A DNA stretch of 64,000 nt, from positions 496,001 through 560,000 of the forward strand of contig NC_017857.3 of the NCBI RefSeq assembly GCF_000260985.4. The letters are read 5' to 3'. The position numbers and the translations under genes were made by a program. Position 1 is the first letter of the stretch, and each line of letters starts with the position of its first letter. This DNA is from Methylophaga nitratireducenticrescens (GTDB lineage: Bacteria > Pseudomonadota > Gammaproteobacteria > Nitrosococcales > Methylophagaceae). Under the pieces are notes generated by a model that searched no databases, was not told the DNA's origin, and saw only the letters and a list, made by a program, of their open reading frames with translations. This document shows, piece after piece, positions 188 to 12,823 of this stretch.

Positions 188-2236
188 TTAAGCACTCACC
201 AGTCGCCTCATCCAATCTAACAAGGCTGTCGATAATAATTCGGGTTTGGTCAAGAGCGCATATCCACCAGACCCAAAAATACGAGGAAGGTAGTTCGCCG
301 CCTGACGATCGATGGTCAAACAGAAGCAATGAATGCCTTGCAACTTTGATTCAGTGACTGATTGACGCATATCCTCTACACCATAACGACCTTCATAATC
401 GTCTTTGTCACTAGGTTTACCATCGGAAATCAATAATAGCAGTCTGTGAGCTGCAGGCTGATGCATAAGGCCTGATGTCGCATGACGTATGGCGGCTCCA
501 GTACGAGTATAGTGCTGTGGCTCTAAGGCACTAATTTTAAGGGCAATATCATTGTTATAGCGCTCATCAAAGTCTTTGATTTGTCGAATAGTAACTGCAT
601 TGGGGCCTTCACCGGAAAAGGCCTGAACGGAATATGGTTCGCCCAGGCCCTCAAGAGCAACGCAAACCAGAAGAAGCGCTTCTCTTTCTACATCAATTAC
701 TCGTCGGTTCGCTGAAACCCAACTGTCGGTGGAGCCACTGATGTCAATAAGGAGAGTGATAGCCATGTTACGATCAGTATAACGTCGTGTTTGGTACAAA
801 GCCTCGGCCAAATATTTACCGGCACGAAAATCCGCATAACTGTCTGTGTAAGCATTAAGATCAATATCATCCCCGTCAAGCTGTTTACGACGCGTTACTC
901 GGCGTGCCTGTAGCATTTCGAAGCGTTTGCGTATTGACTGAAGCATGGATTCATGGGCGGCCAGGGTATTGTCGACCCAGTTTTGTGAGCCCTCCTGAGA
1001 AGAAAGTACTCGAATAGTCGCTCCTGGTTCACGGTAAATTTGCTCGCGATAGTCCCATTCTGGATAGCTGAAACCTTTACCTTCAACTATTGCCGCTTTA
1101 AGTTCCTTTCGTGCACGAGCATCTGGAGGATCGTCTGATAGAAGCACTTCCTTTGGCCGACCTGGTGTAGAAACCAGGCGTGCATTAGCGAGCTCGGAAA
1201 CCATTTCACCAAATTCATCGGCGCTGGTGTCCCGATCTCGATCTGTTGGTCGTTGAAGTCCAAAGGGATCTTCTGCATGTGGATGTGACTCATCGGCCTG
1301 AACCATCCAGATCCCCGATTCTGGGTTCTCGTTTTGTTCCTCTTTTGTGGCTTCGCGTTCATCGGGGCGGCGGGAAAGCCTTGCTGATCTCGGCGTACTG
1401 TTTAGATCTTCGCCATTATCTTGTTCCATTGCTGTCGGAATAACGTCATGTTGTGGGGAGGGAGGCCGGAGTTCACCTGTCCACCAATCCTTCACTAATG
1501 GAGAGGGACCAAGATAACGTTCATCAACACCGGTTGGCAATAGTTGAAAAGTTCGTATAACTTCCGAGACATTGTTCAAAGAACCATCTGGTGTGATGGT
1601 AAGAGGAATATCCTTATCTGGATGACCACATTGCGTTTTTAAAAGTCTACGCAGGAATAGTTCGAGCGGTTTCCGCGCATCAGAAAACGTTGCTAAAGCG
1701 GGTCTTTTTTTAAGAGCTTTCCCGCGTAACTTGTTTACTGTTTCCGTGATGCCGGGTAATAGCGTTACCAATTCCTCGTCGGCGGCATAGGCCTCAAGCA
1801 AAAGATAGACATCATTTTGCAAAGCGCTCCTCTCAATATTTGCATATGCTGCTCCACCCCGATGAGCTCTAATCGCCTGTTGAAGGACCATAGCACGATA
1901 AATTTCTGTAGCTTGGGTTGAATCTGCGATTTCTAAGTCCGGTGGTAACCAGATAGATGAGCCATTAGTTGCGGGTATTGGATCTTGTCGACGGGGCTCT
2001 CGGTCATATCGAAATAGCATCGCGAGCAAGGTGGCCCGTGATGGCCGTTGCGCTGAACGTAAATTATAACTGCTGCCGAATATCGCTGTTATCAACAGAT
2101 CCAGACGTGCTGCAACATCGCACAGAGTAACCGCTTGTCTTTGCTCTGGTGGTGTTCTATGTTTGCGCCAAAACTTTTGTACAAATATCGTCGCATGGCG
2201 AGCAGCATCAGAGATGAGTTCTTCAGCTTCTGCCAT
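188..2236 (-). CDS. norD: NorD: VWA-domain activator of nitric oxide reductase
   Basis: A protein of about 682 residues needed in other bacteria to assemble or activate NorCB; it partners the MoxR-type ATPase NorQ. The C-terminal third is a von Willebrand factor A domain with a MIDAS motif (IDISGSTDS, near residue 490), followed by a DGKPS stretch typical of NorD/CbbO proteins. The long N-terminal part is helical and poorly conserved. The start at 2236 is chosen over an upstream GTG because GAGGAG lies four bases before this ATG. It is the last recognised gene of the operon, 32 bp after norQ. It resembles cbbO (35641-37983) in domain plan but is about 100 residues shorter. NorD identity rests on the norCBQ context and is secure. 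Confidence 0.93.
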   Translation of the reverse strand: MAEAEELISDAARHATIFVQKFWRKHRTPPEQRQAVTLCDVAARLDLLITAIFGSSYNLRSAQRPSRATLLAMLFRYDREPRRQDPIPATNGSSIWLPPDLEIADSTQATEIYRAMVLQQAIRAHRGGAAYANIERSALQNDVYLLLEAYAADEELVTLLPGITETVNKLRGKALKKRPALATFSDARKPLELFLRRLLKTQCGHPDKDIPLTITPDGSLNNVSEVIRTFQLLPTGVDERYLGPSPLVKDWWTGELRPPSPQHDVIPTAMEQDNGEDLNSTPRSARLSRRPDEREATKEEQNENPESGIWMVQADESHPHAEDPFGLQRPTDRDRDTSADEFGEMVSELANARLVSTPGRPKEVLLSDDPPDARARKELKAAIVEGKGFSYPEWDYREQIYREPGATIRVLSSQEGSQNWVDNTLAAHESMLQSIRKRFEMLQARRVTRRKQLDGDDIDLNAYTDSYADFRAGKYLAEALYQTRRYTDRNMAITLLIDISGSTDSWVSANRRVIDVEREALLLVCVALEGLGEPYSVQAFSGEGPNAVTIRQIKDFDERYNNDIALKISALEPQHYTRTGAAIRHATSGLMHQPAAHRLLLLISDGKPSDKDDYEGRYGVEDMRQSVTESKLQGIHCFCLTIDRQAANYLPRIFGSGGYALLTKPELLSTALLDWMRRLVSA

Positions 2237-2268
2237 TGAGCTCCTCACTCATTATCAACGAGTCAGCT

Positions 2269-3087
2269 TTATACAAAAGTGGCGTCAACCAGATCACGCA
2301 TGGCACCGACCAGTGATTCATCATCAGACAAAGGTGAAATTAAACCGGCGTAGCAGGCTTCACGAATTGGAATGCCTTTTTCGACTAACAAAGCAGTAGC
2401 TATCAGCAACCGAGTGCTGGGTACTTCTGCAAGCCCACGGTCTTTAAGGGCACGAATTCTGTGCGCCAGTGATACCAGGGCATGCGCCGTCGAATAATCT
2501 GCGCCACTTTCTTCGCGAATAATGGTGAGTTCATGCCTGGCAGACGGAAAGTCCAGATCCATGGCGACAAAACGCTGGCGGGTGGAAGGTTTAAGATCTT
2601 TTAGCATCCGTTGATAGCCAGGGTTGTAGGAAACCACCAGCTGAAATCCTGTCGCTGCTTTGACGGTTTCACCCGTTTTATCAATCGGAAGAATACGTCT
2701 GTGATCTGTTAATGCATGTAACACAACGATAGTATCCTGTCGGGCCTCAACGATTTCATCGAGATAGCAGATTGCACCTTCACGTACCGCCTGAGTTAGT
2801 GGCCCATCGTACCATTGTGTTCCATCGTGCCGAATCAGAAACCGGCCAATAAGATCACTGGCGGCTAAATCGTCATGACAGGGAATGGTAATCAGTGGTC
2901 GACCAAGCCGCCAGGCCATATGTTCAACCAAACGGGTTTTACCACAACCCGTCGGGCCTTTAAGCATGACGGCAAGATTTTGTGCATGACATTGCGCAAA
3001 AATGTCTACTTCATTGCCCGATGGCAAATAGAAAGGTTCAGCTTTAACTTCAGGCACAGAGCGTTTATGCAGAAATTCAGCTGTCAC
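2269..3087 (-). CDS. norQ: NorQ: MoxR-family AAA+ ATPase for nitric oxide reductase
   Basis: A cytoplasmic AAA+ ATPase of 272 residues that, with NorD, is thought to insert or activate the non-heme iron of NorB. Walker A (GPTGCGKTRLVEHMA, about residues 43-57) and Walker B with sensor (CYLDEIVEARQD) are intact. The start is a GTG that overlaps the norB stop (GTGA), implying translational coupling. Near-identical motifs occur in CbbQ (34789-35601), so the two are paralogs of the same MoxR subfamily. Length and motifs match full-length NorQ. Confidence 0.95.
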   Translation of the reverse strand: MTAEFLHKRSVPEVKAEPFYLPSGNEVDIFAQCHAQNLAVMLKGPTGCGKTRLVEHMAWRLGRPLITIPCHDDLAASDLIGRFLIRHDGTQWYDGPLTQAVREGAICYLDEIVEARQDTIVVLHALTDHRRILPIDKTGETVKAATGFQLVVSYNPGYQRMLKDLKPSTRQRFVAMDLDFPSARHELTIIREESGADYSTAHALVSLAHRIRALKDRGLAEVPSTRLLIATALLVEKGIPIREACYAGLISPLSDDESLVGAMRDLVDATFV

Positions 3088-4445
3088 CGTTCTACAGTTT
3101 CTTTGTTAACCGGATCTTCTTCATGTGATGTTTCAAAATGAGGCCGGTACCTGAAAAAGTCGAATATGAATAATGCAACTCCAATAGTAAAAATTGATGC
3201 CGTTGCAATTAGCATCAGAAAATGAACCTGAATTTTAAGTTGGGCATCCAAATATCCCATGCCCATGATCCGTTCCAGATAAACCTGCCCGAGGCCTGCA
3301 GTAGCAAAAGATAAAGTCATACCAAACATACCCGCAAGCTGTAGCCAGAAAGCCCAATAGCCCAATGTGGAACCCTCTTCTGAACGATTAGTCATCTTCG
3401 GTAGAATATACGTTATCATTGCTAGCACAATCATGGCGTAGGCACCATAAAAAGCCGCATGACCATGCATCGCCGTAATTAGCGTCCCATGCGTCCATTT
3501 ATTGACTGCTGGCCAAGTGTGTGCAAGACCCAACAATCCCGCACCAAAAAGCGCAAATACTGTGCTGCCAATGGTCCAGTGTAATGCTAGCGTATTGGGG
3601 TGGGCCAAACCTGAGCGGCGCATGGCTGCATATGCAAACGCGGCCATGCCAACTAGTGCTGCTGGTTCAAGAGCACTAAAAAAACCACCGATCGGAAGCC
3701 AATACTGAGGCACTCCTACCCAGTAGTAATGATGCGCAGTTCCGAGAATTCCCGCGATAAACACTAATCCGACAATGACATAAAGCCATTTTTCCATGAC
3801 CTCCCGATCCGCTCCGGACAGACGAATCAGGAGATAGGCAAGAAATGACCCCATAATCATCATCCAGACGCCTTCCACCCAAAGATGAATTGTCCACCAC
3901 CGATAGAAAATGGAAATCGTATAATTTTCGTAATGAAGTAATGCTGGGAAAAATAACAATGCAGAGCTACCCAACCCTAGTAATAAGACCCCTTCGGTGG
4001 TGGTAAAGCGACCAGACTTTTTAATTGTCATAGCGATGTTATAAAGAAAAATCAACATACAGATTACGATGATGATTTTGTGCGGCAAGGGTTGCTCCAA
4101 TAGCTTGTTGCCTGTGCCATAACGAAAAAGATAGCCAATGATGGCGGCCACACCCATACCCGTCCAGAGAATCAGTTGTAGGTAAGCAAGCTTGACGCTA
4201 TGTAGTTCAGTACGCGACTCATCGGGAACCATCCAATAGGTCCCCCCCATAAAGCCTGTTAATACCCATACAATAAGAAGGTTGGTGTGTATGACCTTGG
4301 TCACGTCGAACGGCAGAATGTAAAGCAGAGGATCCGGACCCAAATACTTGGTGGCAGATAAAAGACCGAATACCAGCTGTAATCCAAACAAGACCATAGC
4401 AACAGCAAAGTACCAATACGCAACTGATTGCGATTTATACCGCAT
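3084..4445 (-). CDS. norB: NorB: nitric oxide reductase, large cytochrome b subunit
   Basis: Catalytic membrane subunit (453 residues) of the cytochrome c-dependent NO reductase, which reduces two NO to N2O. It belongs to the heme-copper oxidase superfamily and has about twelve predicted membrane segments. Conserved histidines expected for heme b, heme b3 and the non-heme iron are visible in VIHTNLLIVW, GTAHHYYWVG and MHGHAAFYGAY. The start follows a good AAGGAG site. It overlaps norQ by four bases and follows norC by 60 bp. With no nitrite or nitrous oxide reductase in the window, its role could be denitrification or NO detoxification. Confidence 0.96.
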   Translation of the reverse strand: MRYKSQSVAYWYFAVAMVLFGLQLVFGLLSATKYLGPDPLLYILPFDVTKVIHTNLLIVWVLTGFMGGTYWMVPDESRTELHSVKLAYLQLILWTGMGVAAIIGYLFRYGTGNKLLEQPLPHKIIIVICMLIFLYNIAMTIKKSGRFTTTEGVLLLGLGSSALLFFPALLHYENYTISIFYRWWTIHLWVEGVWMMIMGSFLAYLLIRLSGADREVMEKWLYVIVGLVFIAGILGTAHHYYWVGVPQYWLPIGGFFSALEPAALVGMAAFAYAAMRRSGLAHPNTLALHWTIGSTVFALFGAGLLGLAHTWPAVNKWTHGTLITAMHGHAAFYGAYAMIVLAMITYILPKMTNRSEEGSTLGYWAFWLQLAGMFGMTLSFATAGLGQVYLERIMGMGYLDAQLKIQVHFLMLIATASIFTIGVALFIFDFFRYRPHFETSHEEDPVNKETVER

Positions 4446-4505: not shown

Positions 4506-5336
4506 TCATTTCAGTGTTGCCAGAAAGGCTGTTAATTGCTCGAGTTCTTCCTTTGAAAGGCTCTGTTCATAACCTGTCGGCATGAATGATGTTTCACCGG
4601 AAGAATACATTTCTCCGGGCACCAAATAAGCACTAGGCGCGATAATGGATTCTCGTATGTACTCTTCAATATTGGTAGCTTCTCCGTCGTATTCCGGTGA
4701 TTCAATAATTTCAGCCGCCCGCTTTGCTAAGCCAGCCATGGACGGGCCAGCCATATTGACGTCAGGTTCTGTGGAGTGACATGAGGCACAAGCTGGCTGA
4801 GCTGTTCGGAAAATGTGCTCCCCTATTGCACGTGGATCGTCATTCCCGTCTACTGGAGTAACTCCCTGGGGGGCTGCATCCGCTATTACACCACCAGAAA
4901 CACCGCTTCCCGTGACGGTTATGGGACGAGGAGGCCATCCTTGATTATCTACATTGGAAACCCACTCGAGAAAAGTAATCAGATCGGCAATCTCCTTTTC
5001 GCTCAAATTTTGAGTGGGCATGAGCCGGCGATGCTTTTGCTCATCATAAAATTTTGAAGGGTCTCGCATATAAGCGGTGAGATAATCTACTGTTCGGTGT
5101 TTTGTTATCTTAGTCAGATCAGGTGCGTAATAAGCACCTTCACCAAAAATCGTATGGCAGTTAATGCAATTGTATTTGTGCCATACGTCTTTCCCGTGGA
5201 TCACTTCATCGTTGATATTTTCAGCATGCGTCAGATCGTCAATTTGACGGTGAGTATCCAGGGTAAGTACTAGAAATATAAAAGCAGCAATGCCAGTGGA
5301 TGCAATTGCAAAAATTCGAGCCTGCCGATTAGTCAT
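4506..5336 (-). CDS. norC: NorC-type cytochrome c subunit with an extra C-terminal heme domain
   Basis: Electron-input subunit of NO reductase. Residues 1-130 look like classical NorC: an N-terminal membrane anchor (about 8-27), heme site CINCH at 57-61 and a likely axial Met in LMPTQN. Unlike the usual NorC of about 150 residues, this protein has 276: after a Gly/Pro-rich linker (about 135-165) there is a second cytochrome c domain with CASCH at 183-187 and a distal FMPTGY methionine. The start at 5336 is preferred over one 12 codons upstream because GAGGG precedes it at normal spacing. The extra domain could take electrons from a soluble cytochrome. NorC identity is firm; the tail's role is inferred. 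Confidence 0.92.
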   Translation of the reverse strand: MTNRQARIFAIASTGIAAFIFLVLTLDTHRQIDDLTHAENINDEVIHGKDVWHKYNCINCHTIFGEGAYYAPDLTKITKHRTVDYLTAYMRDPSKFYDEQKHRRLMPTQNLSEKEIADLITFLEWVSNVDNQGWPPRPITVTGSGVSGGVIADAAPQGVTPVDGNDDPRAIGEHIFRTAQPACASCHSTEPDVNMAGPSMAGLAKRAAEIIESPEYDGEATNIEEYIRESIIAPSAYLVPGEMYSSGETSFMPTGYEQSLSKEELEQLTAFLATLK

Positions 5337-5350
5337 AGTTATCCCTCGTA

Positions 5351-5476
5351 CTAGACGCTGATGCCACCCCAATAAAGAATTGAGATTGAAGTAGCGTAGA
5401 TAATGCCCGATGCCATCAGCAATAACACAACAAAGCTAAATATTCGGAGTGGCCCATAAAATTTTTTCTGTTGCAT
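5351..5476 (-). CDS. 41-residue single-span membrane protein at the head of the nor operon
   Basis: A short frame translating to 41 residues, MQQKKFYGPLRIF at the start and YWGGISV at the end. It has a basic N-terminus followed by a hydrophobic stretch of about 20 residues, so one membrane span with the N-terminus inside is predicted. A strong AGGAG lies 6 bases before the ATG, and norC starts 14 bp after its stop, so it should be the first gene of the operon. Good translation signals and operon position argue it is real. I do not recognise the family; it could be a small accessory subunit of NorCB. Confidence 0.65.
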   Translation of the reverse strand: MQQKKFYGPLRIFSFVVLLLMASGIIYATSISILYWGGISV

Positions 5477-5940
5477 ACGAGCTCCTGTCAAAAGATGTAC
5501 GTGATAGCTACTCAGTCCTTCTTTTAGTTTTTTGTGGGGCTGTTAGCTGCTACATTTCTAAGCCATCTCATCTGCACGGCCTACCAACAGAGGAAAGATG
5601 AATAACTGCTTTTTATGACTTGTAAAACTAAGGGGAACCCCTTTTTGAGGACATTGCCTCAATATTTAGCCCTTTTATCGCCGAGAGCCCTGAAGGGCTA
5701 TGCTTGCTGTTAACGTTGTGAACCGAGGTTTGAGATATCTCTGAGTTTCAAAGAGTTTAAGAGGCTTTTGACCTGACCCTACCATCTCTCTTTTGGTTTT
5801 GTCAAGATAGTGCTCGTAGAGCTGTTCCCGGCTCTCTCAAAGCTTGTTGTTTGCCTTCATGTCCATACTGAAAGTCACTCTTTGTCAACTTACGTTTGAG
5901 TTCAAGCGGAAAGAGTTTTATTTGATGTCAATCGGGGGGC
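5477..5940 (-). promoter_or_regulatory. nor operon upstream region with a possible NsrR half-site
   Basis: About 460 bp without a convincing gene, upstream of the nor operon. The octamer AAGATGTA at 5492-5499 matches one half of the NsrR operator (an NO-responsive repressor of nor genes), sitting just upstream of the ribosome binding site of the small first gene. The second half-site is poor. No FNR/Dnr-type palindrome with correct spacing was found. The promoter itself could not be assigned. Confidence 0.25.
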
Positions 5941-5972
5941 AAAAAAGCCCCAACACTTCAATATTGGGGCTT
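5941..5972 (-). terminator. Rho-independent terminator beside the tRNA-Leu 3' fragment
   Basis: On the minus strand a 9-bp perfect stem (AAGCCCCAA with TTGGGGCTT, loop of 10) is followed by a run of six U. It sits just downstream of a tRNA 3'-end fragment, and an imperfect version of the same terminator follows the intact tRNA-Leu at 7511-7543. The fragment and terminator were therefore probably duplicated together. Confidence 0.75.
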
Positions 5973-5984
5973 AAATATTTCTAA

Positions 5985-6013
5985 TGGTGTCGAGGCCGGA
6001 CTCGAACCGGCAC
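5985..6013 (-). pseudogene. 3'-end fragment of a tRNA (T-arm, acceptor strand, CCA)
   Basis: The minus strand reads GTGCCGGTTCGAGTCCGGC and then an acceptor strand ending in CCA, i.e. a complete T-arm plus 3' acceptor half. I found no matching 5' acceptor strand (TGTCGAG) or anticodon arm upstream, so this is not a whole tRNA. It resembles the 3' end of tRNA-Leu(TAA) at 7557-7643, and the terminator downstream is shared too. Such a fragment is what an integrase leaves at one end of an element inserted in a tRNA gene. Confidence 0.6.
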
Positions 6014-7003: not shown

Positions 7004-7312
7004 TTAAACCGCCCGTAGAAACGGGGTAGAGCCCTGATTAGATACCTTTATCAATACATAGATCAGAGGACGCTCTTCATCAGGGATAAGTTTAGATACG
7101 ACCCCACTTAGCTGTTTATTCTCTAGAAGTTGTCTGATCTCTGAGGACACTACTCTATTCACATTGTCAATTTGCACACCGTTGCAAAATACAGCGATAG
7201 CATTTTTGTCCTTTGGATTGTCGGACTCATGTTCAAATTGAACCTTGCTGCCAATTTCGATACTTTTCATATTATTTGCGCTGAGATAGTAGCGTGTTCC
7301 AGCAATTTCCAT
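7004..7312 (-). CDS. Stand-alone HIRAN-domain protein
   Basis: A 102-residue protein that consists almost wholly of one HIRAN-like domain: GTRYYLSANN near the start, then EHESDNPKDKNAIAV (about 28-42), where the D-N-P-x-D-x-N-A-I core is the family signature, and a terminal beta stretch YVLIKVS. HIRAN domains bind DNA ends or stalled forks in Rad5/HLTF-type helicases and also occur alone in bacteria. An in-frame stop lies shortly before the ATG, and upstream sequence in another frame shows no obvious continuation. It could be a free-standing small protein or the surviving piece of a larger gene. It lies in the islet next to tRNA-Leu. Confidence 0.6.
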   Translation of the reverse strand: MEIAGTRYYLSANNMKSIEIGSKVQFEHESDNPKDKNAIAVFCNGVQIDNVNRVVSSEIRQLLENKQLSGVVSKLIPDEERPLIYVLIKVSNQGSTPFLRAV

Positions 7313-7556
7313 GTAGTAGTCATATGGGGGCCGACTGAGGATAGGTCAGGAATTAATGTAAAACCGTCACTAGGAAGCTTCGCGCTAGTGTGGTGCGTAG
7401 AGAAGGGCAAAGTGCATGTTTTTAAATTTAAATACTCAGTATTCCAACACGTTTCTATAATCTTTAGTAGTTGGGTTCTCCTAATTTGTTGAAAAGGATT
7501 TAGTAAAAACAAAAAAGCCCCAACATGTTTCCATATTGAGGCTTAAATATTTCTGT

Positions 7557-7643
7557 TGGTGCCCGGGGCCGGAATCGAACCGGCACGACCGCAAAGTCGA
7601 GGGATTTTAAGTCCCTTGTGTCTACCAATTTCACCACCCGGGC
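7557..7643 (-). tRNA. tRNA-Leu (anticodon TAA)
   Basis: The minus strand gives an 87-nt tRNA with encoded CCA: acceptor GCCCGGG pairs with CCCGGGC, the anticodon loop CTTAAAA carries TAA, there is a long variable arm as in class II tRNAs, and a standard T-arm. An imperfect hairpin with a U-run follows at 7543-7511. Its 3' end is duplicated at 5985-6013, marking it as a likely past integration target. Confidence 0.95.
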
Positions 7644-11950: not shown

Positions 11951-12823
11951 ATGTCTGTATCCCATCCGATTATTGCAGTTACAGGGTCTTCCGGCGCAGG
12001 CACTTCGAATGTAAAACATGCATTTGAAGACATTTTTCGTCGTACCAATGTTAAGCCTGCTGTTATCGAGGGTGACAGCTTTCACCGATATAATCGTGAG
12101 GAGATGCGTGCCGCTGTAGTTCAGGCGGAAGCCGAAGGTCGCGCGTTGACGCATTTCGGTCCTGAAGCCAATTGTCTTGATCGACTGGAAAGATTGTTTC
12201 AGACCTACTCAGAAACCGGCCGTGGCGAAAAACGTTATTACATTCACGACGAATCCGAAGCAGTTAAATTCAATCAACCACCCGGAACATTTACCGAGTG
12301 GGAAGAGTTGGATAATGACAGTGATCTGCTGTTTTACGAGGGGCTGCACGGCGGTATGGTTACCGATGAAGTGAATATTGCCCAACATACCGATCTGTTA
12401 ATTGGTGTGGTGCCGGTTATCAATATCGAGTGGATCCAGAAGATCAAACGTGACTGTGCCAACCGTGGATATTCTCAGGATGCCGTTGTCGATATTATTT
12501 TGAAACGTATGCCGGATTACATTCACCACATTACGCCTCAGTTTTCCCGCACCCATATCAACTTTCAGCGGGTGCCGTTAATTGATACCTCAAACCCGTT
12601 TGTGATGCGGGAAATTCCCACCCCGGATGAAAGTCTGTGTGTTATCCGTTTTAAAGATCCCAAGATGGCAGATTTTCCGTATTACCTATCAATGCTGAAG
12701 GATTCATTTATGTCACGGCCCAACAATATGGTTGTGCCAGGAACCAAAATGGGCCTGGCTATTGAAATTATTCTAATGCCGTTTGTTGAGGAAATGATGC
12801 AGAAAAAACGGCAACGTGTTTAA
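11951..12823 (+). CDS. cbbP: Phosphoribulokinase (Calvin cycle)
   Basis: Phosphorylates ribulose 5-phosphate to ribulose 1,5-bisphosphate, the RuBisCO substrate. The 290-residue protein is of the proteobacterial type: P-loop variant GSSGAGTSN at about 12-20, EGDSFHRY (catalytic Asp region), and FYEGLHGG for the acidic Walker B-like site. A close AAGGAG site precedes the ATG. It is not beside the cbbLSQO operon (about 20 kb away) but lies in a housekeeping run with purD and tsaC. With a complete RuBisCO operon in the same window, a Calvin-cycle function is more likely than an orphan PrkB role. Confidence 0.92.
   Translation: MSVSHPIIAVTGSSGAGTSNVKHAFEDIFRRTNVKPAVIEGDSFHRYNREEMRAAVVQAEAEGRALTHFGPEANCLDRLERLFQTYSETGRGEKRYYIHDESEAVKFNQPPGTFTEWEELDNDSDLLFYEGLHGGMVTDEVNIAQHTDLLIGVVPVINIEWIQKIKRDCANRGYSQDAVVDIILKRMPDYIHHITPQFSRTHINFQRVPLIDTSNPFVMREIPTPDESLCVIRFKDPKMADFPYYLSMLKDSFMSRPNNMVVPGTKMGLAIEIILMPFVEEMMQKKRQRV

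Follow-up and report, generated by a model that had tools for sequence, protein, structure and literature searches.

In cytochrome bd, CydX (37 aa), CydY and CydZ are reported to be shorter than 50 residues, to be poorly annotated, to spread with their operon and to go each with one structural type of CydA (PMC4325964). Among the small subunits of cbb3 oxidase, CcoQ stabilises the two-heme CcoP on CcoNO, and CcoM is needed for stability and not for activity (PMC8267372). The NO reductase cNOR, which makes most of the N2O of denitrification, is described as a two-subunit enzyme, while the classical nor cluster also encodes NorE and NorF, small membrane proteins of unknown function (PMC13036017), of which NorF has 79 residues in Marinobacter hydrocarbonoclasticus (PMC6152468).

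Here we describe a small gene placed directly before norC in a 64,000-nt stretch of the Methylophaga nitratireducenticrescens genome (hereafter the window), whose 41-residue product is short, forms one predicted helix, is conserved and is linked to one structural-subunit type. These traits make CydX, CydY and CydZ, likewise tied to one structural-subunit type each, its closest parallel in kind, although they belong to an unrelated enzyme and their genes follow cydAB, whereas the small gene heads its unit. KdpF, a single-helix subunit of about 29 residues, is encoded by the first gene of kdpFABC; the likeness lies in the single helix and the leading position, while KdpF serves an ion pump and no relation between the two has been shown. 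The small protein would share with CcoQ and with the single-span CcoM (PMC8267372) the standing of a small subunit of a heme-copper enzyme, but it has no sequence match to either (PDB at E<=10; Pfam and NCBIfam lists), and its gene sits before rather than among the structural genes. NorE and NorF differ from it in gene position as well, and with 41 residues and one helix it is well below the 70-80 or so residues of a NorF.

Layout of the nor unit and form of the small protein

The small gene occupies 5351..5476 on the minus strand, stop included (ATG at 5476-5474, stop TAG at 5353-5351), and its predicted product is a protein of 41 aa with one transmembrane helix. The original prediction had placed a strong AGGAG site ahead of this frame and the frame itself 14 bp before norC without naming the strand, and both hold: the AGGAG ribosome-binding site lies on the minus strand at 5482..5486, 5 nt before the ATG, and 14 nt separate the small-gene stop from the norC ATG (at 5336). 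An upstream in-frame TTG would extend the protein to 46 aa, and we prefer the ATG as the start because the AGGAG spacing fits it. The small gene is preceded by a Shine-Dalgarno of its own in the window and in many related loci. Ahead of it in the window, neither a confident -35/-10 promoter nor an FNR box was found; FNR-type boxes (strict pattern) lie upstream in only two loci, the window not among them, and the upstream-motif search of small-gene loci returned no convincing terminator site. The small gene heads a five-gene unit, being followed on the minus strand by norC (4506..5336; 276 aa, two-heme type with CxxCH at 57 and 183), norB (3084..4445; 453 aa, with the motif HLWVEGVWMMI), norQ (2269..3087; AAA_5 and CbbQ_C domains) and norD (188..2248), whose VWA domain match falls slightly below the Pfam cut-offs and which appears as norD in the published nor2 table.

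The single membrane span that had been proposed from the letters was borne out by a best 19-residue Kyte-Doolittle mean of 2.23 and by an AlphaFold2 prediction (47 homologues) of one helix at residues 7-34, with a mean pLDDT of 84.9, a pTM of 0.52 and pLDDT block means of 96 and 97 for residues 11-30. Across residues 10-33 conservation was one-sided on the helix, with a permutation p of 0.003 at 100 degrees and of 0.024 as the best of all angles, the conserved face being formed by V17, M21, A/G24 and A28. The N-terminal part was more positive than the C-terminal part in 44 of 47 homologues, and this charge suggests an N-inside topology.

Library searches placed the protein in no described family. 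The best Pfam match of the window copy (PF13239, E 0.14) was under that family's cut-off, and the 47 members gave no credible match to Pfam (28 families, none in more than 3 members) or to NCBIfam (7 families, with a best E of 0.0015 in one member). CcoQ/FixQ, CcoM and CydX were not among the matches listed (25 of the 28 Pfam and the 7 NCBIfam families, E<=1), and the family profile found no chain at E<=10 in the PDB, where a CcoM chain is presumably deposited. Titles and opening parts of abstracts in the literature yielded no report of a 41-residue protein of this kind. The small gene is real and conserved, yet the libraries covered here contain no described family for it.

Conservation, selection and association with the two-heme NorC

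A search started from norC drew 62 loci related to that of the window from 84,980 species genomes. Sixty of these (L030-L089) match along NorC, and 58 have enough upstream DNA, L055 and L056 having been left out of the upstream test with only 38 nt upstream each; the other two, L090 and L091, are other cytochromes or distant NorC (35% identity, part matches) and have no such ORF upstream. A homologous small ORF precedes norC in 58/58 testable relatives, 57 found by script and one (L084) by eye, ending 9-78 nt and in most loci 9-16 nt before norC. The L084 protein is divergent, lacks W36 and lies 78 nt from norC, and was accepted on position. The hosts are gammaproteobacteria, betaproteobacteria and myxobacteria, with copies in Marinobacter, Pseudidiomarina, Stutzerimonas, Luteimonas, Noviherbaspirillum and others; the 58 script-found copies, window included, represent 46 distinct proteins, as many Stutzerimonas copies are near-identical. 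One contig filed as Candidatus Saccharibacteria (L088) carries a small gene one residue off the copy of a Cellvibrio assembly (L037), and its assignment is probably a binning error.

I39 and V41 do not vary across a 49-row alignment, in which at least 90% of rows conserve V17, M21, Y27 and W36. The original prediction held that the frame should be conserved in relatives with synonymous change favoured, which agrees with the 58 loci above and with the comparison of the window to Marinobacter salicampi, where dN/dS is 0.10 (dN 0.147, dS 1.40) and the differences at codon positions 1/2/3 number 9/4/18. Pairs with dS<2 (n=574) gave a median dN/dS of 0.42, with 64% below 0.5, 97% below 1 and a few pairs above 1, and dS is saturated in 29 of the 45 pairs that include the window; the substitution fraction at the three codon positions is 0.44/0.30/0.58. 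These patterns of sequence change confirm the small ORF as a true gene under purifying selection, and we infer that it is translated. The 41-residue query alone, run against 58 genomes of the same genus, family, order and class, recovered only its own copy (all others E>=0.059), because those relatives do not have this norC, so the blank search is no argument against the frame. The originally suggested search by tblastn ahead of norC in other methylotroph genomes would for the most part fail in the same way, since the own genome is the only one among 57 in the family with a two-heme norC of the window type.

The NorC of this locus matches P. aeruginosa NorC across residues 13-137 (PDB 3o0r_C, E 4e-22) and continues into a second domain with its own CxxCH, in place of the single heme site of cNOR NorC. 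Two CxxCH sites are present in 62 of 63 NorC, the 63rd sequence being incomplete. A NorC-like match at E<=1e-12 is present in 74 of 369 genomes of the GTDB class Gammaproteobacteria and covers the whole length in only three, G000, G222 and G231, and these are the only genomes of the 369 matched by the small-protein profile at E<=1e-3 (1.1e-21, 3.6e-14 and 4.7e-4, respectively), each directly ahead of norC. The G231 match is weak alone and was accepted on position. The small gene is thus found in 3/3 genomes with the two-heme NorC and in 0/71 with only other NorC-like matches (Fisher 1.5e-5), a count in which some weak members of the 71 (E near 1e-13) may be other cytochromes. At E<=0.1 the profile matched in 59 of the 369 genomes, mostly at E 0.001-0.1; judging them as a group, we read these further matches as noise because of their weak E-values and mostly long, unrelated frames.

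A sample of 398 Pseudomonadota, which overlaps the first and shares G000 and G222 with it among others, has a NorC match at E<=1e-20 in 39 genomes and over full length in G000, G222 and G706. These are also the three with a small-protein match below 1e-13, giving 3/3 genomes with the two-heme NorC against 0/36 others (Fisher 1.1e-4), and the profile had been built without the copies from G222, G231 and G706. Five other matches in this sample (E 9e-4 to 0.004) were taken as chance, one of them in G758, whose one-heme norC is 1.2 Mb away. A one-heme norC is present as well in each of G000, G222 and G706, and no membrane ORF lies before it. Likewise, no such ORF was found upstream of 27 norC genes of other types, namely 26 one-heme genes and that of L125; L148 has an unrelated hydrophobic frame 107 nt upstream of its norC. 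Because the two-heme NorC of L125 (G273, frame from 1321) is independent, differs in its second domain and is not preceded by a small gene, the small gene goes with the window-type NorC clade and not with every two-heme NorC.

A tblastn of the 41 residues (E<=10) against 72,556 plasmid records gave matches in two, from Aquabacterium olei and Eleftheria terrae, which are also the two plasmids with a complete two-heme NorC; in five further plasmids, where NorC is matched in part, tblastn gave no small-protein match. Neither plasmid record lists the small gene, which agrees with the expectation that gene finders skip a frame of this size, within the limits of two annotated records, the only ones found, and of a gene table declared to be incomplete. 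The small gene is tied strictly to one NorC type, that of a NO reductase subclass with a second c-type heme domain. The original appeal to the small hydrophobic subunits common in heme-copper oxidases was too broad and is best limited to this subclass.

Proposed role of the small protein and competing explanations

The small protein very probably functions with the two-heme-NorC NO reductase and is probably an overlooked third subunit of it. Of the original guess of an accessory subunit of NorCB, the part that concerns a real, unlisted single-span protein tied to norCB is strongly supported, and subunit status is the best-supported reading of what the sequences offer. In the proposed arrangement the N-terminus of the helix would be cytoplasmic and its C-terminus, ending W..I.V, on the periplasmic side; the conserved small-residue face would pack on a membrane helix in NorC, NorB or both; and the helix may clamp the enlarged two-heme NorC onto NorB, as CcoQ does with the two-heme CcoP. 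We propose a clamp because the helix has one conserved face and is always encoded with a NorC bearing an added heme domain. A one-sided conserved helix would equally fit another binding partner, which speaks against packing on NorC or NorB specifically, and ordinary cNOR works with two subunits, which speaks against a third. Taken together as a true gene, a helix packing on NorC/NorB and an accessory subunit stabilising the two-heme enzyme, the proposal seems to us reasonably likely.

The catalytic subunit of the unit is recognisably that of a cNOR: window NorB matches 4xyd_A at E 3e-108 and 3o0r_B at E 6e-105 and keeps HLWVEG and FSALEP, with the ligand and second glutamates of cNOR present. 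Where P. aeruginosa NorB reads HLWVEGVWELI, the window reads HLWVEGVWMMI, with Met aligned to Glu215, which belongs to a trio of glutamates in the cavity beneath the active site (PMC3431322). This aligned residue is Met in 42 of 58 NorB and Glu in 16, and the change from Glu to Met, which a tree of 48 NorB sequences places once (support 98/96; recovered in 97% of bootstrap trees), offers a natural test of the third glutamate's role. A tentative extension, which we consider doubtful as a whole, would be a three-subunit NOR with two c-type hemes in which an obligate helix locks a longer electron-input arm on NorB and the gammaproteobacterial Glu-to-Met change has rebuilt the cavity, altering proton and electron delivery.

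Several other readings of the small frame have to be weighed against a third subunit. The main rival is an assembly or stability factor, resting transiently on NorC or NorB and absent from the finished enzyme. Whether it brought heme to the second site, helped insertion or joined NorC to NorB, such a factor would show the same conservation and co-occurrence, and the cluster also encodes assembly factors in norQ and norD, NorQD having a role in Fe-B insertion (PMC13036017). We think it unlikely, as the small gene precedes the structural genes and is not placed with norQD in 58/58 loci, and the protein has no soluble, metal-binding or heme-binding part, its window copy containing neither Cys nor His. 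A place on the electron-supply side, in which the helix anchors or docks the donor or NirK at the membrane, would draw on the order nirK, small gene, norCB seen within up to 3 kb upstream in 16/62 related loci, two of them with nirK confirmed by TIGR02376 (L046, 1442-2821; L039, 1239-2615). A gap of 44 nt separates nirK from the small gene that follows it in the Stutzerimonas group (small gene from 2866 in loci of the L035 type), which fits the reported nirK clade II followed by an extra norCBQD in Stutzerimonas (PMC13086519). Yet nirK was not found in the other 46/62 loci, a count limited by short flanks, nor anywhere in the 64-kb window, and strain JAM1, reported to be without NirK (PMC4689864), keeps the small gene, leaving this role very improbable.

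The remaining explanations deny the product any role. A short ORF directly before norC, at 9-16 nt in most loci, could be a leader peptide or a translational-coupling ORF whose product is irrelevant, but the invariance of I39 and V41 in 49 sequences, the codon-position pattern and the dN/dS values speak for a selected protein, and we reject the leader peptide on these grounds; the distance to norC, moreover, varies from 9 to 78 nt and one-heme norC has no such ORF before it, so that we give this reading hardly any credence. A chance ORF has in its favour that 56 of 2000 first-order Markov sequences, modelled on the 320 nt upstream of norC in the window alone, yield a similar frame; the ORF is present in all 57 loci that offer 320 nt or more upstream, counting the window, against 1.04 expected under this simple chance model, and together with the residue conservation this leads us to reject it as next to impossible.

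If the small protein is a third subunit, enzymes of this subclass have been cloned, expressed or modelled in incomplete form. The small gene together with the two-heme NorC provides a signature that separates the subclass in genome surveys, and denitrifiers with both enzyme types, such as Stutzerimonas, are a ready setting for testing the third subunit.

Identity, expression and origin of the nor2 cluster

Because the two cnorB2 primers published for M. nitratireducenticrescens (printed in PMC5710167) match window norB exactly, the cluster is the species' nor2, given as Q7A_0485-0488 in a table of PMC4689864; strains JAM1 and GP59 are 99.94% identical across the nor2 region (PMC5918138). In JAM1, nor2 is transcribed anaerobically and more weakly than nor1 (norC2, 195 reads, 1.9 relative to mxaF; norC1, 1618 and 16.0; PMC4689864), and the growth-phase rise was 1.6-fold for cnorB2 and 18.5-fold for cnorB1 (PMC5710167). 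The nor2 accounts in PMC4689864 and PMC5710167 name four genes and, in the parts that describe the cluster, nothing ahead of norC. Horizontal transfer of nor2 is likely on sequence comparison, as window NorB shares 93% identity with its Marinobacter salicampi counterpart and this norC is absent from the rest of the 57 family genomes.

Between tRNA-Leu(TAA) (7557-7643, minus) and the nor2 cluster lies a copy (5940-6013) of an 86%-identical near-repeat whose other copy (7510-7586) spans the 3' end and downstream flank of that tRNA gene, and the pair looks like an old integration scar. Beside this repeat, 7004-7312 on the minus strand encodes a stand-alone 102-aa HIRAN-domain protein (Pfam PF08797, E 1e-10). 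Farther along the window of this methylotroph, 11951-12823 on the plus strand encodes a 290-aa putative phosphoribulokinase, assigned to the phosphoribulokinase/uridine kinase family by its Pfam match (PF00485, E 1.7e-65).
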